A stretch of 64,000 nucleotides of DNA from Fodinibius halophilus. GTDB taxonomy: Bacteria > Bacteroidota > Rhodothermia > Balneolales > Balneolaceae. A program made the translations under genes and the position numbers. Where the stretch lies: assembly GCF_011059105.1 (NCBI RefSeq), contig NZ_JAALLS010000003.1, positions 124,001-188,000 on the forward strand. The letters run 5' to 3'. This document shows, piece after piece, positions 29,663-55,945 of this stretch; the first letter of the stretch is position 1, and every line of letters begins with the position of its first letter. The notes below the pieces were generated by a model, which was given only the letters and a program-made list of their open reading frames with translations, ran no database searches and was not told the DNA's origin.

Positions 29663-29857
29663 ATGGAAAATCAAGATAATATACTCGGGAGATCAGAAAT
29701 GAAGCAGATCACGGCTGGTAATTATTCAACCTGCAATCAACAATCTTGTTATGTGGTGGGGACTAATAAATATGAATGTAAGCTAGGTGGCGGATATTTA
29801 GCACACTGCGTGCAATTTAATGAACTCCATTGCCAGAATTTTGTGTGCCACCCATGA
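29663..29857 (+). CDS. Six-cysteine double-glycine-type precursor peptide
   Basis: 64 residues, AT-rich. The leader MENQDNILGRSEMKQITAG resembles Bacteroidota natural-product leaders (..LSRxEMKxIxGG) cut by C39 peptidases after GG or AG. The predicted core of 45 residues has six cysteines at 24, 29, 39, 49, 57 and 62 (C-x4-C-x9-C-x9-C-x7-C-x4-C), suited to three disulfides. There is no Sec signal peptide. A TATTTTTG box at 29557-29564 fits the Bacteroidota -7 motif, but no clear -33 box is seen. A perfect hairpin terminator follows, so it forms its own transcript. The exporter and VKOR-thioredoxin genes lie downstream. Its activity is unknown. Confidence 0.72.
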   Translation: MENQDNILGRSEMKQITAGNYSTCNQQSCYVVGTNKYECKLGGGYLAHCVQFNELHCQNFVCHP

Positions 29858-29883
29858 TAACCAATTCTTTATAACGATTTATT

Positions 29884-29928
29884 ACAGACCTGAGTTACAT
29901 AAGAATAATACTCAGGTCTGTTTATTAA
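29884..29928 (+). terminator. Strong terminator of the precursor peptide gene
   Basis: ACAGACCTGAGT pairs perfectly with ACTCAGGTCTGT over 12 bp, followed by TTATTAA. It begins 27 bases after the peptide stop codon. Confidence 0.88.
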
Positions 29929-30073
29929 CTTATAGACAGATTTCATATTACCCATGAGTACATTTATTGGCTTATTTATTAAGGTTGTGTTAATAATTAT
30001 TATACATGCCCCCTGGCTTTAGAAAAGTTTCAATAAATGTAATTTAATCATCAATAATGTTACAGACTTGTGT

Positions 30074-30349
30074 ATGAAAGAGGAATTAGCTGATTCCATA
30101 AGAAAAGAGGAAAAAAAAACAACGACAAGTGTTTGGCAGCGGATAAAGGATTCCATTGCTGCTCTACTTATGGGTATAGTCATATATTTCATAGCGCCAA
30201 TAGGCCTTATCCATATGCATTTAGATAATAGTATTATTTATGTGATTTTGAGTTTATATTTGGCCACATGCTTGTTGGTGGGTTGGTTCTACGGTAAACA
30301 AACAAGAAATATTTTATATGCTAAAATTATGGATTGGTGGGATCCGTAA
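30074..30349 (+). CDS. Small two-helix membrane protein, candidate immunity or accessory factor
   Basis: 91 residues from ATG at 30074; a TTG at 30068 is possible. The N-terminus is charged and ends in a KEEKKTTTSVWQRIKDS amphipathic stretch. Two membrane segments follow (IAALLMGIVIYFIAPIGLI and SIIYVILSLYLATCLLVGW), and the tail is KIMDWWDP. Related sequences occur as a pseudogene at 29225 and, more distantly, at 35916. Small membrane proteins beside bacteriocin genes are often immunity proteins, which is an inference here. A run of nine A at 30111-30119 near the N-terminus is a possible slippage point. No family is recognised. Confidence 0.65.
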   Translation: MKEELADSIRKEEKKTTTSVWQRIKDSIAALLMGIVIYFIAPIGLIHMHLDNSIIYVILSLYLATCLLVGWFYGKQTRNILYAKIMDWWDP

Positions 30350-30389
30350 GATATGTTTAAATAATAATGCACTTCATTTAATATCTTAA

Positions 30390-30424
30390 ATACCCCCCAA
30401 AATAATGAGGGGATATCTTTTTAG
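30390..30424 (+). terminator. Intrinsic terminator after the two-helix protein gene
   Basis: ATACCCC pairs with GGGGATAT around CCAAAATAATGA, followed by CTTTTT. A degraded version of the same hairpin follows the pseudogene near 29530-29563. Confidence 0.75.
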
Positions 30425-30465
30425 ATTATTCATCAAAAATCGTTTCGTTAAACTAATTATTTATC

Positions 30466-32106
30466 ATGCAAAAACTTGTATCTAAAGAAAAAGTCCTTTC
30501 TCAATACCTCAATTATTTGGATATACCAGTTTCAAGTAGTTACTGCGAAAAACTGGTTGCCTCACACCCCCATCATACTACGCTACTGAGCATTGCTGAT
30601 ACTCTAAAATTGTTAGGAGTTCCAAATAAGATTTTTCGTATTAAGAGGGAAGAGCTTGAAAACATATCCTTCCCATATGTATTGCATCTTAACACGGATA
30701 GTGGTGAGTTAATAGCAATTATGGATAGCAAAGATTTGGAGGAGAAACAACCTTTTTTAGAGGATTGGGATGGTGTTGTGCTTAAAGCAGAACCAACCCC
30801 AATAATAAGCGATGAAGAAAACCAGTCCCATATTTCGAAAGAACGGGATGCAAAAATTAGTTCCGTTTTATTTGTTGCAGCGGTGGCTTTTCTTTTGTTT
30901 TTGCTATTTATCCAGAATATATCGTGGGTCTATTTTTCATTTTTAATTACTGCTGCTGCCGGCACAGTATTAGGATACATCCTTGTGGCAAAAGATTTAG
31001 GTATTGAATATAAAGCTGTAATGTCCTTTTGCAACAAGGGAGGAATGCGAACAAGCTGTGATCAAGTATTAGGGTCTCAAGATGCCAAAATTTTTGGCAG
31101 GGTAACTTTTTCGGACGCCGTGTTGAGTTATTTCAGCTTTCAATTAATCATAGTTGGGCTTATTGCTCCGGTTTATGAAAACCCAGTTGGTTTCTTATGG
31201 GTTTTGTCTATGCTTAGTGTTCCAGCTCTACCGATTATAGGTTATTCGTTATACTCCCAATTTTTTAAGCTCCAATATTGGTGCAAGCTGTGCCTGTTTG
31301 TAGATGGAATTCTTATGATACAAGCAGTTTTGGGGGGATTAATGTACAGTATGGCTACAATTACTGTGGCTGATTATAGTTTTTTTGCTATCGGTGTATC
31401 AATCTTTTTATTCACTGTAGTAAGTTCCCTTATTTTTTTGCTGAAATTGAAATTGGCCGCAGGAAAACGGGCTACTCAGGCTGAAATCAAAGCGAATCGT
31501 ATAAAATACAATCCCTCTGTTTTTTCTTGGCTTCTTTCACAAGAAAAGCAACTAAATATCACACCGTTTGATAAGGAGTTACAGGTTGGATCTCCAACTG
31601 GCTCAATCAAAATAGTTATGGCAGCCAGTTTTTCATGTATACATTGTAAAAAAAGCTTCCAAAAATTTACTCAACTAAATGAATTATATCCTGGTCAACT
31701 AAATCTAGTATTTAGGTTTTTACCTGATAAAGAATTAAACAATAAAGGTTCTCTTGCAAAAACCTTTTGGGGCTATTGGCTGCTGCAAATATATGAGGAC
31801 AATGAAGAGATTCCTCGTACCAAGCAGCTTATTCAGGATAAATTTACATTGTCATCTGATACATTTAAAGAAAAATATAAGCAGGATAAAAATATTGATG
31901 ATAAATTAATAGAAGATCTTTCATACCAACAAGCCAAATGGTTTGATATGTATGATATTAAAAGCACACCTAGTTTTTTTATTCAAGATCATCAACTTCC
32001 TGATGGCTATCAAATAAATGATCTTAAAAGATTAATACCAGGATTAATAGAAGCATCACAAGAAAAAAACAACCAACCATTCGTCCCATTCTCCCGACAT
32101 CTATAA
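30466..32106 (+). CDS. C39-like/VKOR/thioredoxin fusion oxidoreductase
   Basis: 546 residues in three parts. Residues ~1-110 resemble a C39 peptidase domain (LLSIADTLKLLGVPNKIFRIKREELENISFPYVLHL) but lack the catalytic Cys and His. Residues ~125-330 are a VKOR membrane domain, with loop cysteines in FCNKGGMRTSCDQVL and the active-site CxxC in YWCKLCLFVDG. After ~385 comes a DsbA-like thioredoxin domain with CIHC in VMAASFSCIHCKKSFQKF and a cis-Pro-type STPSFFI. VKOR reoxidises the thioredoxin domain with quinone and forms disulfides outside the inner membrane. Its neighbour encodes a six-Cys peptide, the likely substrate. The gene is AT-rich. Confidence 0.88.
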   Translation: MQKLVSKEKVLSQYLNYLDIPVSSSYCEKLVASHPHHTTLLSIADTLKLLGVPNKIFRIKREELENISFPYVLHLNTDSGELIAIMDSKDLEEKQPFLEDWDGVVLKAEPTPIISDEENQSHISKERDAKISSVLFVAAVAFLLFLLFIQNISWVYFSFLITAAAGTVLGYILVAKDLGIEYKAVMSFCNKGGMRTSCDQVLGSQDAKIFGRVTFSDAVLSYFSFQLIIVGLIAPVYENPVGFLWVLSMLSVPALPIIGYSLYSQFFKLQYWCKLCLFVDGILMIQAVLGGLMYSMATITVADYSFFAIGVSIFLFTVVSSLIFLLKLKLAAGKRATQAEIKANRIKYNPSVFSWLLSQEKQLNITPFDKELQVGSPTGSIKIVMAASFSCIHCKKSFQKFTQLNELYPGQLNLVFRFLPDKELNNKGSLAKTFWGYWLLQIYEDNEEIPRTKQLIQDKFTLSSDTFKEKYKQDKNIDDKLIEDLSYQQAKWFDMYDIKSTPSFFIQDHQLPDGYQINDLKRLIPGLIEASQEKNNQPFVPFSRHL

Positions 32107-32153
32107 ACCCTCATCCTGTTATGTTTTCTGCGTTATATTTTATTAGCTGCATA

Positions 32154-32191
32154 CCATAACTATATCTCTGTCTTCTCAGATATAGTTATGG
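32154..32191 (+). other. Perfect hairpin between oxidoreductase and exporter genes
   Basis: CCATAACTATATCT and AGATATAGTTATGG pair over 14 bp around a 10-base loop. No T-run follows (GCCAGGAAGG), so it is not a classic terminator. It could be an mRNA processing or stability element, or a terminator of another kind, that separates expression of the two genes. Confidence 0.65.
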
Positions 32192-32307
32192 CCAGGAAGG
32201 TAAATCCATGTGAATACTATTGACAATTATTTTCTACATCAAATCTTAACATTACACAATGTCGTTTCGCTGGCATAAACAACAAAATTAAATTTAAGAA
32301 ACAGTAG

Positions 32308-34497
32308 ATGGCACGATTCAAAGTTTACCGCCAGCATGATCAGATGGACTGTGGGCCCACCTGCCTGCGTATGATTGCCAAACATTATGGCAGGAATTAT
32401 ACCCTGCAGACGCTTCGCAAGAAAAGCGGCATCAATCGTGAGGGGGTATCCCTGTTGGGGATGAGCGAAGCGGCCGAAGAGATCGGTTTCCGCACTATTG
32501 GGGCAAAACTTAGCTGGGAGCAGCTAAAAAAGGAAGCGGAACTCCCCTGTGTCATACACTGGGGCCAAGAGCATTTTGTGGTCGTCTATAAAATAAGCGG
32601 ACAAAAGGTATATATCGCCGATCCGGCCAAAGGAAAAGTAGTATATAAAAAAGATGATTTTCTGCAGCAGTGGCTGAGTTCAAAAGTGGATGAGCAGGCT
32701 GCTGGAATAGCGTTACTACTGCATACCACCCCCAAGTTTTATGATCTGGAAGGGGAAGAAAACAACGAGCTGAACTTTAGCCGTCTGTTGCGCTACGTGC
32801 TGCCCTACAAGAATCTGATGTTCCAGTTGGCACTGGGCTTGCTCGTGGGAAGTGCCCTCCAGCTTGTGGTTCCCTTTTTAACCCAGTCAGTGGTAGATAT
32901 CGGGATCCAAAACCGGGATTTGAACTTTATCTACCTCATTCTTATTGCCCAGGTGATGTTGTTTATTGGGCGAACGGCTGTCGAATTTATACGATCCTGG
33001 ATCTTACTGCATATGAGTACCCGTATCAACATTTCTATTCTATCCGATTTTCTGATCAAGCTGATGAAGCTGCCTATGGCATTTTTTGATACGCGCATGA
33101 TCGGTGATATTATGCAGCGGATGGAAGACCATGCCCGTATTCAAAACTTTTTGACCAGTAAAACCCTGAGTACGCTGTTCTCTTTTGCTACCCTTTTTGT
33201 TTTCGCCATTGTGTTGGCTTACTACCATATGATGATCTTTACCATTTTCTTAGTGTGTAGCGTGTTATATGTAATTTGGGTGATGCTCTTTCTTAAAAAG
33301 CGAAGAGAGCTCGACTATCGTCGTTTCGGTATTTCTTCCAATGACCAAAGTAAAGTGATCCAGCTTGTTGAAGGCATGCAGGAGATTAAGTTGAACACCT
33401 GTGAAAAACAGAAACGCTGGGAATGGGAGCGCCTGCAGGCACGTCTGTTCAAATATAAGGTCAGCAACCTTTCTCTTAACCAGTACCAGCAGGCCGGCGC
33501 CTTTTTTATTAATGAAGGCAAAAATATCGGGATCACTTTTATTGCAGCTGTTGCGGTAGTCAATGGCCAGCTCACATTGGGGGCAATGATGGCGGTGCAG
33601 TATATTATTGGTCAGCTAAATGGACCTATTGAGCAGCTCATTACTTTTGTACGGTCAGCCCAGGATGCCCATTTAAGTCTTGAGCGCCTGAATCAAATCC
33701 ACCAACAGGAGGATGAAGAACCGGAAGATGAAAGCTTCATTTATACCCTGCCAGAACAACGAGATATCGAAATAAAAAATGTGAGCTTCTCGTATCCGGG
33801 AGCGGGAAATGAACAGGTATTGAAAAATATTAATATGCGCATTCCCGAAGGGAAGACAACGGCTATAGTTGGGATGAGTGGCAGCGGTAAAACAACTTTG
33901 CTGAAGCTATTGCTTAAATTCTATAAGTTGGACAACGGAAGTATTCATTTGGGGAACGTAAATCTTTCAAATATGGGGCACCGCAGCTGGCGGTCGCATT
34001 GCGGAGTGGTAATGCAGGACGGTTTTATTTTCTCCGATAGTATTGCTGCAAACATTGCAGTGGGAGAGGATCACCCGGATATGCAAAAGATGCAGCACGC
34101 CGTTCAGGTGGCTAATATTCATCCCTTTATAGCGTCACTGCCATTGGGCTACAACACCAAGATCGGCTCCGAGGGCAATAGCATCAGTATGGGACAAAAA
34201 CAGCGTATTTTAATTGCCCGGGCAGTCTATATGGATCCGGAGTTTATCTTTTTTGATGAAGCTACCAACTCGCTGGATGCCAATAACGAGCGAGCAATTA
34301 TGGAAAGCCTGGAAGCCTTTTTTGAACAGCGTACAGTGGTAGTGGTGGCCCACAGGTTGAGTACGGTAAAAAATGCAGACAATATTGTTGTTCTCAGTAA
34401 CGGGGAAATTGTAGAGCAGGGCACGCATCAGGAACTTACGAATCTGGAAGGAGACTATTTCAAGTTGGTAAAAAATCAGCTGGAACTGGGAAATTGA
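32308..34497 (+). CDS. Peptidase-containing ABC transporter (C39 PCAT)
   Basis: 729 residues. The N-terminal C39 peptidase has catalytic Cys15 in DQMDCGPTCLRMIAKHYG, His89 in HWGQEHFVVVYK and Asp105 in IADPAKGK. Six membrane helices span about 165-440. The ATPase has Walker A GMSGSGKTT, signature SMGQKQRILIARAV, Walker B FIFFDEATNSLD and the H-loop VVAHRLSTV. Such transporters cut leaders after GG-type motifs and pump the mature peptide across the inner membrane. The precursor at 29663 is the obvious cargo. It is followed eight bases later by an HlyD adaptor. Base composition is closer to core genes than the peptide and VKOR genes. Confidence 0.95.
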   Translation: MARFKVYRQHDQMDCGPTCLRMIAKHYGRNYTLQTLRKKSGINREGVSLLGMSEAAEEIGFRTIGAKLSWEQLKKEAELPCVIHWGQEHFVVVYKISGQKVYIADPAKGKVVYKKDDFLQQWLSSKVDEQAAGIALLLHTTPKFYDLEGEENNELNFSRLLRYVLPYKNLMFQLALGLLVGSALQLVVPFLTQSVVDIGIQNRDLNFIYLILIAQVMLFIGRTAVEFIRSWILLHMSTRINISILSDFLIKLMKLPMAFFDTRMIGDIMQRMEDHARIQNFLTSKTLSTLFSFATLFVFAIVLAYYHMMIFTIFLVCSVLYVIWVMLFLKKRRELDYRRFGISSNDQSKVIQLVEGMQEIKLNTCEKQKRWEWERLQARLFKYKVSNLSLNQYQQAGAFFINEGKNIGITFIAAVAVVNGQLTLGAMMAVQYIIGQLNGPIEQLITFVRSAQDAHLSLERLNQIHQQEDEEPEDESFIYTLPEQRDIEIKNVSFSYPGAGNEQVLKNINMRIPEGKTTAIVGMSGSGKTTLLKLLLKFYKLDNGSIHLGNVNLSNMGHRSWRSHCGVVMQDGFIFSDSIAANIAVGEDHPDMQKMQHAVQVANIHPFIASLPLGYNTKIGSEGNSISMGQKQRILIARAVYMDPEFIFFDEATNSLDANNERAIMESLEAFFEQRTVVVVAHRLSTVKNADNIVVLSNGEIVEQGTHQELTNLEGDYFKLVKNQLELGN

Positions 34498-34504
34498 GAT
34501 AATT

Positions 34505-35857
34505 ATGGACGAATATTCTTCACAAAACGGTACCGAGCAAGAAGAAGCTTTGGCTGCACCTGAACCCAAGCAGAATAACAGCAGCCATGAGTTAGAGGTA
34601 CGCAGTAACGAGGTGCAAGAAATAATAGGGCGACCACCCCATTGGCTCGTCCGTGGTGGTATTGCCGCTTTTATAGGGGTACTAGCCATGGTTTTTATCG
34701 TTGCTGCAGTTATACAATATCCGGAAGTTATTGAAGCTCCCCTCAAGGTAACGGCCCTTAATGCCCCCAAGCCGATGGAGAGTAAAGTCAATGGGAAACT
34801 GGTTAAGCTGTTATCACCAAATGGAGCCGACGTTGAACAAGGCACTATTATCGCTTGGCTGGAAAGTACCGCCCATCATCAAGAGGTTCTGGACCTGTCT
34901 AAGAATCTTGAAAAAATCGATCGCTGGTTTAATGAAGAAGAGTACAACAAGATCCAGGCACTGGAAATGGAACAATTTACGAATTTAGGAGGGTTGCAAA
35001 CACAGTACCAGTCCTTCTATAAAGTATATAATGAATTCATCACTTTTCTGCCCGGGGGATTGTATCGCCAAAAACGAGCGATGCTTCAGCAAGAGATTGC
35101 ATATAAGAACCAGCTTCTGGAGAGCCTAAAAGAGCAGAAAGAGGTAAAAAAAGTTGATCGTGAACTGGCTAAAAAGAAATATGATATACAAAAGAAACTG
35201 CGAGAAAAAGAGTTATCGGCGCCTCTGGAGCTAGCTACGGCCAAAAGTAAAATGGCAGCCAGCCAATTACCCCTTTTACAAACAGAAACAGCAATTATCA
35301 ATAACCGTGCTTCCCTGGTTGGGAAAAAGCAGCAGCTGATAGAGTTAAACAAACAGTTGGACAGACAGAAAGCTGACTTCCGTCAGGCATTGCATACATT
35401 ACAGAATGCTATTAAAGATTGGAAACAAAAATATTTGCTTCAGGCACCGGTGAGCGGCAAGCTGGTGTATGCCGGGGTATTCCAGGAAAATCAAACCATT
35501 AAATCCGGTGAACGTATAGCATATGTGCGACCTGAGAATACCCACTTTTTTGGAGAGCTTGTTATTTCACAACGTTCGTATGGCAAAATCCAAGAGGGAC
35601 AAGAAGTACTGGTCCGCTTTAGCGGTTTCCCATCCAAAGAGTTTGGTTCGGTATCGGGCAAAGTTGATTACCTTTCCGAATTCCCGGTAAAGGATAGTCT
35701 GTTCGTTGCCAAAGTGACCTTTCCCAACGGTTTTACTACCAATTATGACCGGCAGCTGAATCCGACCAATGGCATGCAGGGCCGTGCTGAGATAATTACC
35801 CAGGATATGCGATTTATCGAGCGTATTTATAACAACCTGACCAAAGAACTACGATAA
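34505..35857 (+). CDS. HlyD-family membrane fusion protein
   Basis: 450 residues. The acidic cytoplasmic N-terminus (~55 residues) ends in RPPHWLVRGG. One membrane helix follows (IAAFIGVLAMVFIVAAVIQYP). A lipoyl half (NAPKPMESKVNGKLVKLLSPNGADVEQGTIIAWLES) comes next, then a long coiled coil (~125-300, KEQKEVKKVDRELAKKKYDIQKKLREKE), the second lipoyl half (LQAPVSGKLVYAGVFQENQTIKSGE) and a beta-barrel. It bridges the inner-membrane exporter to an outer-membrane channel. No TolC gene lies nearby, so a channel encoded elsewhere must serve. Confidence 0.92.
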   Translation: MDEYSSQNGTEQEEALAAPEPKQNNSSHELEVRSNEVQEIIGRPPHWLVRGGIAAFIGVLAMVFIVAAVIQYPEVIEAPLKVTALNAPKPMESKVNGKLVKLLSPNGADVEQGTIIAWLESTAHHQEVLDLSKNLEKIDRWFNEEEYNKIQALEMEQFTNLGGLQTQYQSFYKVYNEFITFLPGGLYRQKRAMLQQEIAYKNQLLESLKEQKEVKKVDRELAKKKYDIQKKLREKELSAPLELATAKSKMAASQLPLLQTETAIINNRASLVGKKQQLIELNKQLDRQKADFRQALHTLQNAIKDWKQKYLLQAPVSGKLVYAGVFQENQTIKSGERIAYVRPENTHFFGELVISQRSYGKIQEGQEVLVRFSGFPSKEFGSVSGKVDYLSEFPVKDSLFVAKVTFPNGFTTNYDRQLNPTNGMQGRAEIITQDMRFIERIYNNLTKELR

Positions 35858-42574: not shown

Positions 42575-43207
42575 ATGACTTTTAACAAAGATTGGACCCT
42601 CGCTCACTTCCTATATTATATCTCACAAATTGGTTATGTGCTAATTGGCGGACTTATCCTAATACAGACCTTTACGTTTTTCATGCAAAGCCAGAACAAT
42701 CATTTAAGTACCGATCTAATTCCTGTGCAATTAGAAGTCCAGGAATTTAAGGAAGCAAGTGATATCAAAGCAGGAGAGGTTACCTTGCATATAAATGAAG
42801 AGATGAATGGAAGAGTTAGGCTTTCAACCTCAGACAAATCTTCTCAATGGCCTATTATTGGTTTTTTCTTGGTCGGCTTGTTGAAGTACGTCATTTTAGC
42901 CATCGTTTTATTCCTGTTCAGCAAACTTTTCAAGACGATTATTGACAAGGAACCCTTTAGCGAGAAAAATCCAACGTACTTATTTACTATTGGCTGGATT
43001 TTATTCTTAGCCCCATTTACTATTCCTGCCCTTAATTTTTTCGTCCATCCCTATTTCGCCAGTCTAGACCTCCCAGAAAACTTATCAATTGCCGGGCTAA
43101 CATATATGGGGGATGGATATGCCTATGCAGGCATTTTTATACTTGTATTGGGCTATGTATTCAAAGAAGGAAACAGGCTCTACAAAGAACAACAACTCAC
43201 GATATAA
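42575..43207 (+). CDS. DUF2975-type membrane protein, first of three
   Basis: 210 residues. Membrane segments lie at about 15-37, 95-116, 135-158 and 178-198, with a polar loop (~45-90) after the first. The C-terminal VFKEGNRLYKEQQLTI is the DUF2975 hallmark. DUF2975 proteins are usually paired with a small Xre-like HTH protein, as here at 44616. Their function is not known; they may sense something at the membrane and govern the regulator. It starts a tight run of five or six genes with small gaps. Confidence 0.75.
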   Translation: MTFNKDWTLAHFLYYISQIGYVLIGGLILIQTFTFFMQSQNNHLSTDLIPVQLEVQEFKEASDIKAGEVTLHINEEMNGRVRLSTSDKSSQWPIIGFFLVGLLKYVILAIVLFLFSKLFKTIIDKEPFSEKNPTYLFTIGWILFLAPFTIPALNFFVHPYFASLDLPENLSIAGLTYMGDGYAYAGIFILVLGYVFKEGNRLYKEQQLTI

Positions 43208-43217
43208 TTATCACACT

Positions 43218-43865
43218 ATGAAAGGACTTGGAGAAAAATCAACGGCCTACTTCTGCTATCTCATTGTTAATGTTTGGTGGTACCTCTCTTGCCTAATGGG
43301 AATTCTGTTTGCCGGGCTTTTGAGCTATGAATTCTTTGGGAGTAGTCATCCCAACTCCATTTTTGGATTAACACTCCCCATAAAGTCTGACCTTATCACT
43401 CTTAAAAACCCGGAGCAATATGAATATCTCTCCACCGGTCCGGCAAAGGGGATGATCGATTTTGACTACATCCTGCAACACACTCCTTACGCATATATTA
43501 CCTGGGCGATCTTTATTGCTATCGCCATTGCTCTTTTTCTATTGGGATTATACCAGCTGCGCAACCTGTTAAAATCTGCCACTAACAACACCATCTTCAC
43601 CGGAGAAAACGTCCGCCGCCTTAAAATAATCGCCCTTTTGGTGTTCTTGGTAGAACCGCTGGAGTGGCTGGCCTATTATCTCACCATACACTTTCTGGGA
43701 CCTGCCTCAGAGATTATAGCCCATGGCATTGGTGAGTTTAAATTAGAAATGCCACTTATTGGCTCGGACTGGACATTTCTAATCGGCGGCTTATTGCTCT
43801 ATACGCTTGCCGCTGTTTTCGAGAAAGGCAACGAGATGTACCAAGAACTCAAATTGACGGTATAA
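43218..43865 (+). CDS. DUF2975-type membrane protein, second of three
   Basis: 215 residues from ATG at 43218; earlier in-frame ATGs lie inside the previous gene. Four membrane segments, one polar loop after TM1, and the terminal FEKGNEMYQELKLTV match the preceding protein. The loop is shorter in charged residues and begins TLPIKSDLITLKNPEQYEYL. It starts 10 bases after the first paralogue stops. Function is unknown. Confidence 0.72.
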   Translation: MKGLGEKSTAYFCYLIVNVWWYLSCLMGILFAGLLSYEFFGSSHPNSIFGLTLPIKSDLITLKNPEQYEYLSTGPAKGMIDFDYILQHTPYAYITWAIFIAIAIALFLLGLYQLRNLLKSATNNTIFTGENVRRLKIIALLVFLVEPLEWLAYYLTIHFLGPASEIIAHGIGEFKLEMPLIGSDWTFLIGGLLLYTLAAVFEKGNEMYQELKLTV

Positions 43866-43883
43866 CTAATACCTAAATCATCT

Positions 43884-44609
43884 ATGGACCTGCAATCAAA
43901 CATCATAAAAGAAAGCAATTTTAGGTGGCTTGTACTCTCAATACTAGCTTTGATGGTTCTATTTTATATCTATCTGGGTATCAACAGTATTCAAACATTC
44001 CACCGAGTATATGACAATAGCCCACCCTCTGCACAAACAGCGACCTATGAAATAGGTGATTTAACTCTCTCCAAAACGACCGTTGTTCAACAAGACACTA
44101 AACGCACGGTTCGCTATATCACGACCGATGATTTATCATACACTCCATCCCAAAAGAAGACAGCTAATATTTTACAGGCACAAACAGGCTTAACAAAAAT
44201 TATGGGGCTGAGTGGCAATCCTTCATTCCTGGTTACCGAAGAACATGAATCATTCTGGAAATCTCAATTTTATTACCAGATCGCATTTTATTTTGGTGGA
44301 TTTCTAATTTTTGCGCTCTTTCTGATAGGTGTTACCGAAATCAATTTTCGACAAGAAAAAAAGTTATTTACAAAAGAAATTAAGCGTTTCTTTGGCGGTA
44401 TCTATGCATTATTCATTACTGCATTCTTTATAAAAGCTGTTCTTTATGGACGAATGGTTCACTTTCTAAACAATGAATATTACCTGGGCGAATCACTTAC
44501 CGGCGGAGTATCCAGCTCGTTGTTAAGCATTGCAGTAGCTTTACTATTCATTTTTCTCTTCTTGGAACGCGCAATTAAACTTCAGAAAGAACAGGATTTA
44601 ACTATTTAG
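43884..44609 (+). CDS. DUF2975-type membrane protein, third of three
   Basis: 241 residues, the most divergent of the three. TM1 (FRWLVLSILALMVLFYIYLGI) is followed by a long polar loop of about 90 residues rich in Thr (SAQTATYEIGDLTLSKTTVVQ), then three membrane segments and the terminal RAIKLQKEQDLTI. It ends six bases before the Xre gene, so the two are likely co-translated. Confidence 0.72.
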   Translation: MDLQSNIIKESNFRWLVLSILALMVLFYIYLGINSIQTFHRVYDNSPPSAQTATYEIGDLTLSKTTVVQQDTKRTVRYITTDDLSYTPSQKKTANILQAQTGLTKIMGLSGNPSFLVTEEHESFWKSQFYYQIAFYFGGFLIFALFLIGVTEINFRQEKKLFTKEIKRFFGGIYALFITAFFIKAVLYGRMVHFLNNEYYLGESLTGGVSSSLLSIAVALLFIFLFLERAIKLQKEQDLTI

Positions 44610-44615
44610 GTTATT

Positions 44616-44831
44616 ATGGCCATTAAAGTAAACTTAGATTTAATGCTGGTAAAGCGCGATATGTCCCTGACCGAACTCTCAGAGAAGGTGGGAGTGACGA
44701 TCTCAAACCTGTCGATCCTGAAAACCGGCAAAGCCAAGGCCGTACGTTTCTCTACGCTTAACGCCATCTGTGAGGCCCTGGATTGCCAACCGGGCGATAT
44801 TTTAGAGTATGAAATAACCGGAGAAGAGTAA
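44616..44831 (+). CDS. Xre/YozG-type HTH regulator
   Basis: 71 residues: a single helix-turn-helix with the YozG-like signature MAIKVNLDLMLVKRDMSLTELSEKVGVTISNLSILKTGKAKAVRFSTLNAICEALDCQPGDILEY. These small regulators are standard partners of DUF2975 proteins. It probably controls this cluster, which is inference from family pairing. It uses more GC-rich codons than the DUF2975 genes. Confidence 0.88.
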   Translation: MAIKVNLDLMLVKRDMSLTELSEKVGVTISNLSILKTGKAKAVRFSTLNAICEALDCQPGDILEYEITGEE

Positions 44832-44903
44832 CACTATTTACTTTTACTCAATAAAAGCATAGCATAACAACCGGAAACAACCAATCGCAAGAGAATACCA
44901 ATT

Positions 44904-45638
44904 ATGATTCTAAAAGCAGAAAACATCACAAAAGCATATAAATCAAGCGCAGATGCTTTTCGGCTGAAGATCGATGACTTTGTTATTGAAGAGGGCAGTT
45001 TTACCGCCATCCTGGGACCCAATGGGTCAGGAAAGTCAACCTTTTTGAAAGTCATTCTCGACCTTCTTTTTGCCGATACCGGGCATATCACCCTGATGGG
45101 AAAATCACACAAGAATAAAGAATCACGGGTTAAACTCAGTTATCTGCCGGAAAATTTCTCACTCCCCAAGAATTTTACCGTCAGAGAGGTATTGCAATCC
45201 TTTGCCGGGCTCAAAAAGTCACCCCCTGAGAACCTGGACCTACGCATTGAAGAACTGGCCGATGCCTTTGATGTCAACTACCTGGACAAAAAAGTGAAAG
45301 GCCTCTCCAAAGGGATGACACAGATTACAGCCCTGATGAATACCTTTTTGTCTGATGATCAATTTTATATTCTGGACGAACCGTTCAACGGACTCGATGC
45401 GGTAAAGAAAAAGGGTATCATGGATTATATATTTCACCTGCAAGATAAACGAAATATCTCGATCCTGATAACGACCCATATTCTTTCTGATATTGATAAA
45501 ACCTGCGACCATCTTCACCTTATAAAGGATGGGCAAATTATCGAAGAAGCTTCGAAATCAGAATTACAAGACCAGTTTGATACCGTCGAATCGTTCTACC
45601 TGCATCATTTTGAAAACAAAGAACCTATTACATCATGA
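44904..45638 (+). CDS. ABC transporter ATP-binding protein
   Basis: 244 residues. Walker A is ILGPNGSGKSTFLK (about 35-48). The signature region is KVKGLSKGMTQITALMNTFL, a variant of LSGGQ (LSKGM) common in ABC-2-type exporters. Walker B is FYILDEPFNGLD, with the switch His in TTHILSDI. The stop codon overlaps the start of the permease gene by four bases. With that permease it forms an ABC-2 exporter; the cargo is unknown. Confidence 0.9.
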   Translation: MILKAENITKAYKSSADAFRLKIDDFVIEEGSFTAILGPNGSGKSTFLKVILDLLFADTGHITLMGKSHKNKESRVKLSYLPENFSLPKNFTVREVLQSFAGLKKSPPENLDLRIEELADAFDVNYLDKKVKGLSKGMTQITALMNTFLSDDQFYILDEPFNGLDAVKKKGIMDYIFHLQDKRNISILITTHILSDIDKTCDHLHLIKDGQIIEEASKSELQDQFDTVESFYLHHFENKEPITS

Positions 45639-46420
45639 TACGTTTTATTACACGCACCATTTTTAAAAATAAAGCATTATGGAGCTGGCCTGCAATTGTT
45701 CTCCTATTTGTATTAGCCATTATGTACTGGGGAGATATAGCAGCTGCTCAAAACAGTTACTCATTTTCAGTTCAGGTGGGTGACCTTAACCTTTCTGCAG
45801 CTATGGTTATGTCGCAGATTATAGGCTTAATTACCTTAGTCTGTATCATTGGCTTTCCAAACCACTTTTCTCAAAATTTAAAGTCGGAACGCAGTTCATT
45901 GATTCTATCAAAACCTATTTCTCGCTCCGATTTTTTCTTTTCTGATCTTGCGGCCGTCTCTATTGTAGCAGTAGCCTACACCCTTATTACCCTTTTACTT
46001 CTGGCAATAATGCTGGCTATTAAAGCCGCTATATTTCCATTTCAGTTCTTTCTCGGCATACTGCTGTTTCTGCCACTGCTAATATTAACCTATTATATAA
46101 CAATTGTTTTATTTCTCACTATTACCAACTCTTATCTGGCAGGTGCCATTTTAGGCTGGTTTATAACAAGCCTGTCCGCCGGCCTGCTAAAGATTGAAAA
46201 ATTAATAGATCTGTTTGGCATTGAGTCAGAGTTATTTCGCTACTTTATGGTAGCGCTCAGCTATATTATCCCCAGTGCGGGCGGGGTAGAAGAGCTGCTT
46301 AAGCAGATATACAGCGGTGGCTTTTCAGCACTTGACGGCGGGTTACTGGCTTTTATATTGGTTAGCTGCCTGCCTTTGGGCCTGCTCAGCTTATATATAT
46401 TCCGGAAAAAAGAGTTTTAA
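45635..46420 (+). CDS. ABC-2 type permease
   Basis: 261 residues with about six membrane segments; the first (IVLLFVLAIMYWG) is followed by a polar loop. The sequence SDLAAVSIVAVAYTLITLLLLAIMLAIKAAIF and the C-terminal LLAFILVSCLPLGLLSLYIFRKKEF fit ABC-2 permeases. It overlaps the ATPase gene by four bases. The pair follows the DUF2975/Xre set by 72 bases and may be under its control. Confidence 0.82.
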   Translation: MIRFITRTIFKNKALWSWPAIVLLFVLAIMYWGDIAAAQNSYSFSVQVGDLNLSAAMVMSQIIGLITLVCIIGFPNHFSQNLKSERSSLILSKPISRSDFFFSDLAAVSIVAVAYTLITLLLLAIMLAIKAAIFPFQFFLGILLFLPLLILTYYITIVLFLTITNSYLAGAILGWFITSLSAGLLKIEKLIDLFGIESELFRYFMVALSYIIPSAGGVEELLKQIYSGGFSALDGGLLAFILVSCLPLGLLSLYIFRKKEF

Positions 46421-51693: not shown

Positions 51694-51909
51694 ATGAAAG
51701 TTAAGATTATGATAGCCAGTCTAATGTTATTGTTCATGGGAAGTGTAATATCTCCAGCATCTGCCAAAGTACGAGAAGACCTTTGTGAAGATGAGCTCGC
51801 AAAATGCAAGAATGATTGTGATGAAAATTGGAATGCTGACTGGGCAAAAGGAGCATGTTACACAGGATGTGGTGCAGGTTATGCAGCCTGTGAAATTGCC
51901 ATCGAATAA
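51694..51909 (+). CDS. Secreted small protein with symmetric twin CX3C cysteine pattern
   Basis: 71 residues. The signal peptide MKVKIMIASLMLLFMGSVIS-PASA ends in an AxA site. The mature 47 residues have six cysteines at 31, 38, 42, 55, 59 and 66, in the mirror pattern C-x6-C-x3-C-x12-C-x3-C-x6-C. Twin CX3C motifs of this spacing make disulfide-linked helical hairpins in small Tim proteins and plant alpha-hairpinins. Its role is unknown; a folding or binding peptide is possible. A hairpin at 51931-51962 separates it from the propeller lipoprotein gene, so it may be transcribed more strongly. The region is AT-rich. Confidence 0.7.
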   Translation: MKVKIMIASLMLLFMGSVISPASAKVREDLCEDELAKCKNDCDENWNADWAKGACYTGCGAGYAACEIAIE

Positions 51910-51930
51910 CACAATTAAATACTAAACATA

Positions 51931-51967
51931 GTAGGGGTACAATACCATATTGTATCCCTATTACTTT
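51931..51967 (+). terminator. Hairpin after the twin CX3C peptide gene
   Basis: GTAGGGGTACAAT pairs with ATTGTATCCCTATTAC with a G-T wobble around a short loop. The trailing sequence is CTTTAAT, so termination is probably partial. Confidence 0.6.
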
Positions 51968-51982
51968 AATACTCTATTCTCA

Positions 51983-52972
51983 ATGTTCCCTAAGAAAAGT
52001 TGTTTTTTTTACACCTTAATTTCTCTACTAATCTTTCAGTTAGTAAGCTGTGAAAAAGAGCCTAATAAAAGAACAGGTAAAGCGGTACAGTTTGTTGATT
52101 ACGATATAGAAAATGTACTCACTATCGATAGTACAAATAGCGCCAACTACATTACTGATTTTACCCTCGACTCTCTAGGAAATATCTACGCACTTGATAT
52201 CAGTGATTTTCAGTTAAAAAAGTTCAACCCAAATGGAGAGTTAATTGCTAAAACTGGAAGAAAAGGAGACGGGCCGGGAGAATTTAAAAAACATTACTAC
52301 ACTGTTAGTAAACTTCCAAATCCTGTAGGGTCCGCAAGTGTCAAAGAGGTCTCAATACAGCTCTTTTCATCCACCTTAGAGCACCAAGATGTGTTGCTTA
52401 ATAACGGAATAGTCTCCACCTTTGCAGCTAATAACAACGGGGATATTTTAGTTAGCAATTTTGCAACAGGTAATCTTGACCTCCTTGACTTGGATGGCAC
52501 GTACCATAAAACAATTGAAGAAGTAGATATTACTGATAAAAAGAAAATCTATGATCTGGTCAAATATATTAAATTCTATAATGACGATATTTTTTATGTG
52601 TCATTTCCATTTAAAAATTTAATCCAGAAGTTTTCTATCTCACAGGGTCTTTTGGATGAATTCAGGCTCCCCTCGATTCCAAAGTTCAGCCGTACCAACG
52701 ACGGATTACCTAAAGGACCAGTCATCCAGGGAATTACGACATTACCAAATGGAAGAGTTTGGGTTGTAGGCCGCAGCTTCAGTAAAAATCCGGCTCAAGA
52801 TATATATGTTTTCAATAAAAAAGGAGAGTACATCCATACATTTGTACTGCCGGAAAAGGCCCAAGCCTTAACCTATAATAATCAGTCACTTTATACTCTT
52901 GGGGCCGGCGGATACCATATAAAAAAATGGAAAATAGATCCGAAACAAGTTTCAAGTCATGAAATCGATTGA
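51983..52972 (+). CDS. 6-bladed beta-propeller lipoprotein
   Basis: 329 residues from ATG at 51983. A lipoprotein signal ends in the lipobox LLIFQLVSC. The rest has NHL/6-bladed repeats: DSLGNIYALDISDFQLKKFNPNGELIAKTGRKGDGPGEF, NNNGDILVSNF, LPNGRVWVVGRSFSKNPAQDIYVFNKKGEYI. Related lipoproteins (BF3164-like) often sit beside secreted small peptides in Bacteroidota, as here. It overlaps the start of the ABC ATPase by 14 bases, so they are translationally coupled. The ligand is unknown. Confidence 0.78.
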   Translation: MFPKKSCFFYTLISLLIFQLVSCEKEPNKRTGKAVQFVDYDIENVLTIDSTNSANYITDFTLDSLGNIYALDISDFQLKKFNPNGELIAKTGRKGDGPGEFKKHYYTVSKLPNPVGSASVKEVSIQLFSSTLEHQDVLLNNGIVSTFAANNNGDILVSNFATGNLDLLDLDGTYHKTIEEVDITDKKKIYDLVKYIKFYNDDIFYVSFPFKNLIQKFSISQGLLDEFRLPSIPKFSRTNDGLPKGPVIQGITTLPNGRVWVVGRSFSKNPAQDIYVFNKKGEYIHTFVLPEKAQALTYNNQSLYTLGAGGYHIKKWKIDPKQVSSHEID

Positions 52973-53873
52973 ACTCACAAACATTTCTACATACTACAAG
53001 AAATCAATATTCCAGAAGACCAAGGTACTGAGGAATATTGACCTAAAATTACAGAAAGGGAAAATATATGGCCTGCTAGGCCCTAACGGCGCCGGGAAAA
53101 CCACATTAATTAAAACATTACTCGGCTTACTTAGAAAACATGACGGTACAATCAGTTATTATAACGAAGGTAAAAAAGTAAGCCGCGTAAAATGGCTCCA
53201 GAGAGTAGGCTTTGTACCCGAAGAAGTAACGTTCTCACAAAATATTACAGGTAGAAATTTTCTAAAATTAATGGGAAACTTATATCCTATCAACAAAAAA
53301 GATCTCACCCAACGGGTAAAAGATCTTTTTCAATTAGTAGGACTGGAATCAGAAAAAGAAAAAAGTATTAATGCTTATTCCAAAGGAATGAAAAAAAGGC
53401 TGTTAATTGCCCAAGCCCTTTTATGTAATCCTCATATGCTTTTTTTAGATGAACCGATGGCAGGCCTGGATCCCAAACAAAGAAATCAAATGAGAAGCCT
53501 CTTCACCCAGTATAAGGACCAGGGTACCGGCATACTAATTAGCAGCCATGAACTTCCTGAAATCCAAATGATCTGTGATGCTATTTTTCTTATAAAAGAT
53601 GGTCAAATTATCCTTACCGAAAACCTTGACAGCCTGGATAGCTTTCAAAGCAACCCGGAAGTACAACTAGCAATCAACGATATCAATGAGTTACCCCAAA
53701 AAATATCAACAAAATATCATTGTTCAGAAGAACATGGGAGAATCACTATTTCTGTTAAACAAGATAATCTTCAAGAGCTCTTAGCAGTATTAAACGACAA
53801 TGGTATCGCCGTGAAAAATATACAAACAGGTAGTGCAAATCTGGAAAAGGTATTTCTAAATAATTTGAAGTAA
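52959..53873 (+). CDS. ABC transporter ATP-binding protein
   Basis: 304 residues. Walker A is [14 protein letters not shown], the signature is AYSKGMKKRLLIAQALL and Walker B MLFLDEPMAGLDPK, with the switch His in ISSHELPEI. The C-terminal ~90 residues form an extra domain (VQLAINDINELPQKI..) common in ABC-2 exporters such as CcmA/NatA-type. It is downstream of the propeller lipoprotein and two bases before the permease. The system may export a peptide or act on the envelope; the cargo is not known. Confidence 0.9.
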   Translation: MKSIELTNISTYYKKSIFQKTKVLRNIDLKLQKGKIYGLLGPNGAGKTTLIKTLLGLLRKHDGTISYYNEGKKVSRVKWLQRVGFVPEEVTFSQNITGRNFLKLMGNLYPINKKDLTQRVKDLFQLVGLESEKEKSINAYSKGMKKRLLIAQALLCNPHMLFLDEPMAGLDPKQRNQMRSLFTQYKDQGTGILISSHELPEIQMICDAIFLIKDGQIILTENLDSLDSFQSNPEVQLAINDINELPQKISTKYHCSEEHGRITISVKQDNLQELLAVLNDNGIAVKNIQTGSANLEKVFLNNLK

Positions 53874-53875
53874 CT

Positions 53876-54664
53876 ATGAGTACTCTACTGAATGTTTTAT
53901 CAATTCAATGGCGTGAGTTAAAACAAGCGCGGTCATTTTATACTGCGCTTGCACTAGGGATACCGCTTTTTATTTATACCGGTATTTTCATGGACCTGCA
54001 ATGGAATGCGTACCAACTGGTGGCAGTAGATTATATTACAACGTCTGAACCGAATCTATTTATATCTCAATGGGCCTTTGGATATTTTGTAATCTTATTT
54101 TGTTTATGCTATACAAGTGGAGCTATCCTTATGCTAAACAAAACCGGTGAATTCACGTCTCTTTTATTTTCAAAACCGATATCAAGAGAAAAATTCTTTT
54201 TGTATCTAATTTCTGGTACCACGCTCTTAATAATGATCCCATTTGTACTTTTACATCTTAGTTTTTGGATTAATTTTGGGATCCTCGATCAAGTATGGTC
54301 ACCATATATATGGCTTAGCTTACTTGGATTATTAGCTCCCTGCCTATTAATTGTTAGTTCGATTTCGTTCTTTTCATTTATTTCGGGCAGTGGTGTCTTT
54401 CCAACAATAGTATATTGCTTTATTTTTCCCTTTATCTTCGGAGAAAAAGAAAAGTTTTTATATCCGTTAGCGGATAATAATATCTACAGAGGACTTATAG
54501 ACTTTATAGATCTTTTTCTACCAAATTTTGGTGACCTTCTTATGTTTTCCGGAAATATATTTGCCCAGCAACCATACCAGCTTTCCATTAACACCTTAGG
54601 AATTCCCTACATTGTCATATTATTGGGAATCTCATTTTTTCTCTTTAAAAGAAAAAATATATAA
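53876..54664 (+). CDS. ABC-2 type permease
   Basis: 262 residues. About six membrane segments (SFYTALALGIPLFIYTGIFM, WAFGYFVILFCLCYTSGAILML, LYLISGTTLLIMIPFVLLHL, LLGLLAPCLLIVSSISFFSF and more). An N-terminal RELKQARSFY lead and the terminal GISFFLFKRKNI match ABC-2 permeases. It begins two bases after the ATPase stop. Confidence 0.82.
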   Translation: MSTLLNVLSIQWRELKQARSFYTALALGIPLFIYTGIFMDLQWNAYQLVAVDYITTSEPNLFISQWAFGYFVILFCLCYTSGAILMLNKTGEFTSLLFSKPISREKFFLYLISGTTLLIMIPFVLLHLSFWINFGILDQVWSPYIWLSLLGLLAPCLLIVSSISFFSFISGSGVFPTIVYCFIFPFIFGEKEKFLYPLADNNIYRGLIDFIDLFLPNFGDLLMFSGNIFAQQPYQLSINTLGIPYIVILLGISFFLFKRKNI

Positions 54665-54987: not shown

Positions 54988-55197
54988 TCAGTTTACAAGT
55001 TCTGGCATTTTCTTATAATTCAAGATTAAATAAACTAACCCTGAAAAAGGAATAAAGAAGAAAATAAACCCCAAGAAAATTTTAACAAATGTTGAATATC
55101 TTTGTTCTTTTCCAACTAAAAATATTGCTGAGATAGTAATCACGAAATAAAGTATAATTACCAAAAATAACATTGGTTCACTTATAAAAAATATCAT
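54988..55197 (-). CDS. Small membrane protein, PLDc_N-like
   Basis: 69 residues. Two membrane segments (MLFLVIILYFVITISAIFLV and IFLGFIFFFIPFSGLVYLIL) frame a short polar loop and end in NYKKMPELVN. The pattern, with a Pro-Phe-Ser-Gly turn in the second helix (PFSGLVYLI), resembles PLDc_N two-helix domains of cardiolipin-synthase-like proteins, which often occur alone. It is 13 bases downstream of the cysteine-rich lipoprotein, on the same strand. Confidence 0.55.
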   Translation of the reverse strand: MIFFISEPMLFLVIILYFVITISAIFLVGKEQRYSTFVKIFLGFIFFFIPFSGLVYLILNYKKMPELVN

Positions 55198-55210: not shown

Positions 55211-55945
55211 TTATTTGCAACAATAAGCTTGTGTTGATAAACATCCATGATTTTCACCAACACAAGAAGTATCCACTCCACCAATTTTACTACATGTCTC
55301 TCCGGTTGCTTCCTCATGGTCCTTAACCTTTCTGGAGGCACCCTCACTTTTTATGGTGCTCACAGCAACTGATCTTGTAAAACCGACTGAATTTAAATAA
55401 TAAGTATTCCAGAAACTACAACCACTTAGTGTAGACCTATGGAACATATTAGCTTTAATTTTATTTTGCGAATTAGAAGTTATTTCATCTAGTGCAAATA
55501 ATAATAACGTTAAATCTTTATTTAAGTTATTTTTACTAAAGTCTTCTAATGGTCCCTGATAGTTTTCCGTAATAATATAAGGGGAATTATTTACTAGGCT
55601 TACACCTAAACTAGGTTTTCCATCTAGATGCAAAACCTCATCCTTAATATAGAAAGAAAAACTTTGTTCCCTAGAATTATGTTTATCCCCAGAAATTACG
55701 TTATGCTGTAAGAAATTAATATCTGTTCTGCTCTTTCTTTTTTTAACTTCTGCTTTTACAACACCAAGAGAAACGAACTCTTGAGAGAATAGGTCCTGAT
55801 TATTTTCAATTGTTAAATTCTCTTTTAAATCATAATTTTTCTGAGCTTCTTCAGTTCCAACAGTATCATTACATGATGAAAATAAAATGAATGATATTAA
55901 AACTAATCCTAGATATGATAAGTTCGATAAATTTAGATATGACAC
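55211..55945 (-). CDS. Lipoprotein with a cysteine-rich C-terminus
   Basis: 244 residues from a GTG start. The hydrophobic lead ends in lipobox LFSSC, so it is a lipoprotein. The middle (about 50-160) is polar with no recognised fold. Six cysteines follow in the C-terminal ~75 residues: one in STLSGCSFW, and five in GETCSKIGGVDTSC and GENHGCLSTQAYCC. They are likely disulfide-bonded. No family is known to me. It is AT-rich, in the same accessory block as the twin CX3C peptide but on the other strand. Confidence 0.65.
   Translation of the reverse strand: MSYLNLSNLSYLGLVLISFILFSSCNDTVGTEEAQKNYDLKENLTIENNQDLFSQEFVSLGVVKAEVKKRKSRTDINFLQHNVISGDKHNSREQSFSFYIKDEVLHLDGKPSLGVSLVNNSPYIITENYQGPLEDFSKNNLNKDLTLLLFALDEITSNSQNKIKANMFHRSTLSGCSFWNTYYLNSVGFTRSVAVSTIKSEGASRKVKDHEEATGETCSKIGGVDTSCVGENHGCLSTQAYCCK

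Follow-up and report, generated by a model that had tools for sequence, protein, structure and literature searches.

What does a bacterium do with a small secreted peptide whose cysteines are arranged in mirror symmetry? The window analysed here, 64,000 nucleotides of Fodinibius halophilus DNA, encodes such a peptide at 51694-51909 on the forward strand, in an open reading frame of 71 residues that is identified as a six-cysteine helical-hairpin precursor by its translation, family conservation and predicted fold. Residues 1-24 (MKVKIMIASLMLLFMGSVISPASA) form a signal that, judged by inspection, is of the Sec type, with a basic start, a hydrophobic core and an ASA/K junction, and residues 25-71 (KVREDLCEDELAKCKNDCDENWNADWAKGACYTGCGAGYAACEIAIE) form a mature part of 47 residues with the pattern C-x6-C-x3-C-x12-C-x3-C-x6-C. 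Translation and cysteine gaps (6-3-12-3-6) agree exactly with the original prediction of a secreted peptide with a mirror-symmetric twin CX3C motif. Six cysteines placed at random in 47 residues give palindromic gaps in 0.37% of cases; the real test of the symmetry is the conservation of spacing among homologues, rather than this chance figure. Internal duplication was rejected as its source, because the two halves mirror each other in spacing and are not repeats. No Pfam or NCBIfam family matches the peptide above cut-off, in line with the earlier claim that no bacterial family with a signal peptide and this pattern was known; BSMAP (Pfam, E 0.026) falls below cut-off and was discarded as an identity.

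A peptide family with a conserved cysteine scaffold

A single-sequence scan of 84,980 genomes with the window peptide gave no close relative. On contig 34 of the window's own genome there is a divergent paralogue (39% over 52 residues, E 0.07), whose case is strengthened by the propeller lipoprotein gene that follows it as well. Peptide and propeller matches are likewise adjacent in genomes G012 and G028, and an ORF scan revealed full six-cysteine peptides, including a tandem pair in G028. Iterated profile searches brought the family to 25 peptide genes in 22 genomes from two classes of one phylum (10 of the 245 genomes of the window's class, and 12 of the second class). Two more matches (G823 and G611) are doubtful, with stops or unclear frames, and stand outside the 25. 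In two accepted members, the peptide of locus L112 and the first copy in L118, a frameshift separates the signal region from the cysteine domain; each could be a pseudogene or the result of an assembly error.

The original prediction had named unconserved cysteine spacing in homologues as one way in which it could fail, and this did not come about: 22 peptides share the exact spacing 6-3-n-3-6, with n being 10, 12, 13, 15 or 17. The commonest middle gap is x17, not the x12 of the window, and the exceptions are two peptides with 7/8-3-12-3-3 and one with four cysteines. In the alignment four cysteines are invariant, two nearly so, and one glycine is nearly invariant, while the remaining columns drift; the scaffold is kept at a mean column identity of 38%. 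The net charge of the mature peptides is mostly acidic or neutral (-6 in the window, range -9 to +1). These peptides are a previously unnamed bacterial family that extends beyond the window's class, and a literature search found no description of the peptide-propeller operon. Several candidates were set aside: a Flavihumibacter match is a chance hit, out of frame within another gene; weak profile matches (E > 0.002, e.g., L060-L064, L070 and L071) lie inside unrelated genes or have no fitting ORF; and TIGR04117, a radical-SAM target family (Syntroph_Cxxx), reaches 13.9-15.2 bits against a cut-off of 50, with no radical SAM gene among the cassette neighbours read.

How might the cysteines be paired? 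An AlphaFold2 model of the window's mature peptide, built with five relatives, places helices at 2-21 and 25-46 (mean pLDDT 87.2); the model is thus a helical hairpin, and the second outcome that could have overturned the original prediction, a non-hairpin fold, did not materialise. C1 and C6 are missing from the paralogue on contig 34, and the peptides of L143 and L122, which are more distant and also precede propellers, keep both C-x6-C motifs and lack C3 and C4; judged by position and spacing, the latter two are likely homologous to the family. Cysteines are lost as mirror pairs, which supports, at the level of sequence, nested disulfides C1-C6, C2-C5 and C3-C4.

Plant alpha-hairpinins are defence peptides with a mirror-symmetric cystine hairpin, and they rank high among the Foldseek candidates (Jug r 2, VBP-8, Luffin P1, Nigellin-1.1 and BWI-2c; VIA Z 4.7-6.7). 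Because unrelated hairpins give similar structural scores and Foldseek E-values exceed 2, we take this match as likeness of fold, not ancestry. The family profile finds nothing related among PDB sequences (best E 0.53, unrelated), and short cysteine peptides can diverge past detection. Both groups share a helix-loop-helix of 40-50 residues, twin CX3C motifs and nested disulfides (here predicted). The patterns described for alpha-hairpinins and vicilin-buried peptides are C-x3-C-x4-20-C-x3-C and, in the six-cysteine form, C-x3-C-x3-C-xn-C-x3-C-x3-C (PMC11591084). The core is present here, with gaps 3-12-3 in the window and 3-(10 to 17)-3 in homologues, but the outer cysteines of alpha-hairpinins stand at x3 and those of the family at x6, sequence similarity is absent, and the family is bacterial and resides in an operon with a propeller and an ABC transporter. 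A Pfam scan of 19 members up to E 0.1 showed neither zf-Tim10_DDP (small Tim, twin CX3C) nor CHCH; the fold-search rows likewise list no structure of either kind, an absence that does not show the folds to differ.

Among bacterial hairpin peptides, sublancin is known to have dedicated thiol oxidoreductases. Together with glycocin F and thermoglycocin it belongs to the glycocins, which show that a bacterial helical hairpin whose disulfides are nested, in some cases three of them, can be antibacterial (PMC12457901). The family would resemble them as a set of bacterial secreted hairpins: both C-x6-C motifs are present and the hairpin is predicted, with a presumed nested pairing. It differs in its Sec signal, its extra inner CX3C pair and its Gram-negative hosts, and neither a glycosyltransferase nor C39/GG-leader export occurs in the six-cysteine cassette neighbourhoods. 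Small secreted peptides of the NVEALA type neighbour six-bladed propeller lipoproteins in Bacteroidota. They share with the family the small exported peptide, but their cysteine pattern differs; NVEALA (PF14055), considered as the nearest analogue in Bacteroidota, matched neither the family peptides nor the window's genome, and a literature search on NVEALA found nothing.

Partner genes, RNA hairpin and genomic setting

In the window the order of genes is peptide, propeller, ATPase, permease, all on the forward strand. The propeller gene (51983-52972, ATG start) encodes a lipoprotein with lipobox LVSC, which is six-bladed and NHL/DUF5128-like; its NHL and DUF5128 matches are weak and below cut-off, and its low-confidence model (pLDDT 59), for which NHL propellers are the best structural matches, was used for the propeller fold alone. 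Pfam and NCBIfam identify the next product (52959-53873) as a DrrA/GldA/LanF-like ABC ATP-binding subunit, the best NCBIfam matches being drrA, GldA and lantibiotic-protection ABC, with scores below the curated cut-offs. The last gene (53876-54664) yields no significant Pfam match; we assign it as an ABC-2-type permease subunit, since its product is a hydrophobic membrane protein and occupies the place that permeases take in the other ABC-bearing cassettes. The earlier reading of a propeller lipoprotein followed by an ABC exporter holds for the genes and their order; the transporter is a two-gene, DrrA/GldA/LanF-like ABC-2 system and not a peptide exporter of the C39 type.

The gene directly after the peptide encodes a six-bladed NHL/DUF5128-like propeller in every locus (in L104 it is cut by the contig end), and peptide and propeller together are the smallest unit that is conserved. 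In the window's class the propellers are lipoproteins, and most of those in the second class are plain secreted proteins. An ABC ATPase follows in 17 of 21 assessable loci, nearly all with an ABC-2 permease and sometimes with a second one, and an adjoining ABC is absent from at least four loci. Because the peptide already has a Sec signal, the ABC pair is more likely to serve protection or efflux than to export the peptide. Such a layout recalls self-protection by LanFEG, BcrAB and DrrAB, in which separate ATPase and ABC-2 permease genes also end a peptide operon; the window's scores, however, lie below the curated cut-offs, and a protective role is here presumptive. In second-class loci the propeller is followed by a MauE-like protein, usually with a C-terminal CxxC redoxin fusion, or by a separate CxxC redoxin, neither of which was seen in cassettes of the window's class. 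Upstream of some loci lie small AraC-type HTH_18, LuxR-type or Yip1 genes.

Between the peptide and propeller genes, the transcript is predicted to fold into a 16-bp RNA hairpin (51929-51963, forward strand; -19.3 kcal/mol, z = -5.34), which has no T run behind it and is probably an attenuator or a transcript stabiliser. Gaps of this kind contain a hairpin with z <= -2.8 in 11 of the 17 loci with a measurable gap, compared with 4 of 35 gaps between co-directional genes that served as controls (Fisher p = 1.5e-4, an optimistic value since some loci are close relatives). Among divergent loci the hairpin sequences are unrelated and their position is the same. A hairpin after the peptide gene fits a peptide output that would exceed that of its partners.

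One neighbourhood is of a bacteriocin type. Next to the C-x6-C...C-x6-C peptide and its propeller on contig 76 of G028 (L122) lies an ABC exporter with a C39 peptidase domain (Pfam E 2e-34), accompanied by an ABC pair, a GG-leader peptide (MKALEVHQMEEIVGG...) and a thioredoxin-like protein; this is an association in one genome, not proof of a link to bacteriocins. Candidate RiPP clusters in Streptomyces are recorded as containing MauE homologues, and MauE is believed to assist the formation of disulfides (PMC7794033). The window itself harbours a separate bacteriocin/RiPP-type cluster at 29663-35857 (forward strand), with a GG-leader-like, cysteine-rich peptide of 64 residues, a small membrane protein, a C39-like membrane protein of 546 residues, an HlyD-like protein and an ABC exporter with a C39 peptidase domain (Pfam C39 E 5e-39). 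The forward strand also encodes, at 42575-46420, a second pair of ABC ATPase and permease, along with a short HTH protein of the Cro type and three small membrane proteins related to one another.

Among the 12 genomes of the genus, the window's genome is the only carrier, and the cassette is absent at the argS junction in the other 11. In most of these a methyltransferase gene begins 40-280 bp after argS, a distance that is 6.3 kb in the window; in G002 a dehydrogenase gene separates the two, as it does in the window. We therefore regard the cassette as an accessory insertion at a hotspot. At the argS spot of G006 (L142:984-2724) there is a different cysteine-rich secreted protein with its own propeller, and beside them a small membrane protein similar to that of window 54988-55197. 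Inside the window's argS insertion, 55211-55945 on the reverse strand encodes a lipoprotein with a cysteine-rich C-terminus (GETCSKIGGVDTSCVGENHGCLSTQAYCCK) and no Pfam or NCBIfam match. On contig 34 (L103) a small cysteine-rich secreted peptide of a different type adjoins a second propeller gene; they lie on the opposite strand from the second peptide, some 2.7-4.1 kb away. As to rates, the mature peptides of the L110/L111 pair diverge at dN 0.19 (dS 0.51), compared with 0.08 for the ABC ATPase and 0.05 for the regulator; of the three comparisons within the f7 trio, two show a faster change in the peptide than in the ATPase and one shows equal rates. The dN/dS ratio is below 1 throughout, and the propeller diverges about as fast as the peptide.

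A tentative role in competition, and its rivals

How might these components act together? The peptide is probably directed at other microbes, as a weapon or as a signal. We envision it as bacteriocin-like, secreted and stapled by disulfides on a scaffold new to bacteria, with the propeller as its partner and the ABC pair for self-protection; its most likely purpose would be competition with other microbes. We hold this reading tentatively, as quite possible if short of probable. The peptide would leave the cytoplasm by Sec, its signal being cleaved, and would be oxidised outside into the predicted hairpin with three putatively nested disulfides, in many relatives with the aid of a dedicated MauE and/or CxxC redoxin. 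The folded RNA hairpin preceding the remaining operon may cause the peptide to be made in excess. It would then bind the adjoining propeller lipoprotein as its carrier, docking or immunity partner, as the invariant adjacency and the similar divergence rates suggest, and the DrrAB/LanF-like ABC pair would clear it from the producer's own membrane or periplasm. The acidic charge argues against a membrane-lytic mode, because such peptides are cationic. We arrive at this reading because the cysteine scaffold is kept at 38% mean column identity, cysteines are lost pairwise and the predicted fold is a hairpin; because the peptide-propeller order is constant and MauE with a CxxC domain is available as a redox partner; because the peptide changes faster than the ABC ATPase and its presence is accessory and patchy; and because the G028 contig 76 cluster is bacteriocin-type and the intergenic hairpin enriched. 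Against it stand the lack of any homologue of known function, the absence of the ABC from at least four loci, the lack of an outer-membrane export route within the cassette, and bacteriocin-protection ABC matches that are below cut-off and common to many ABC-2 ATPases.

The main rival, which we consider somewhat unlikely, is a fixed periplasmic or surface complex of peptide and propeller, with a NosFY-like ABC for assembly or cargo supply. Its layout would be analogous to that of the methylamine dehydrogenase cluster (MauA/MauB/MauE/MauD), which shares a small disulfide-rich protein, a propeller subunit and a MauE/redoxin pair; the cassette differs in an unrelated peptide, a six-bladed NHL-type propeller, the lack of TTQ residues and an added ABC pair. 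As to MauA homology, the family alignment has no conserved tryptophan and Pfam gives no match. Invariant adjacency, similar divergence of peptide and propeller, the often fused MauE and CxxC redoxin, loci devoid of the ABC, and acidic peptides unlike toxins all suit a complex. However, conservation of only the cysteines and one glycine leaves no cofactor site such as the TTQ tryptophan pair, the intergenic hairpin suggests unequal expression, tandem peptides in G028 share a single propeller, and the distribution is patchy and accessory.

Two further readings weigh less. A signalling role, in which the propeller lipoprotein and an associated regulator would read the peptide as a message between cells or within the envelope, appears improbable: surface-type propeller lipoproteins can act as binding proteins, and L105, L106, L110, L111 and L112 have small AraC-type HTH_18 genes immediately upstream, but these regulators are small HTH proteins of the cytoplasm that lack a receptor domain, they are absent from the window and many loci, and no kinase or transmembrane regulator recurs among the neighbourhoods read. 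More improbable still is a metal-binding or redox carrier, with the ABC, MauE and propeller set devoted to metal or respiratory maturation. It would be in keeping with the twin CX3C motifs among the six cysteines and with the NosFY-like ABC, MauE and redoxin partners, yet the hairpin and the symmetric pairwise loss of cysteines suit disulfides rather than ligand sites, no histidine or methionine is conserved, and the peptide sequence drifts fast.

The bacteriocin-like reading can be taken further, to a new and widespread class of Gram-negative bacteriocins: Sec-exported triple-disulfide hairpins that look like plant alpha-hairpinins, matured by a dedicated MauE-redoxin, with the propeller lipoprotein as receptor or immunity protein. 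We think this extension possible but rather doubtful. More broadly, the apparently independent use of the mirror cystine hairpin in a conserved bacterial operon would supply the secreted peptides of bacteria with a new scaffold. The many six-bladed propeller lipoproteins that are unexplained in Bacteroidota-type genomes would acquire a testable role, and MauE/redoxin pairs would be linked to peptide oxidation.
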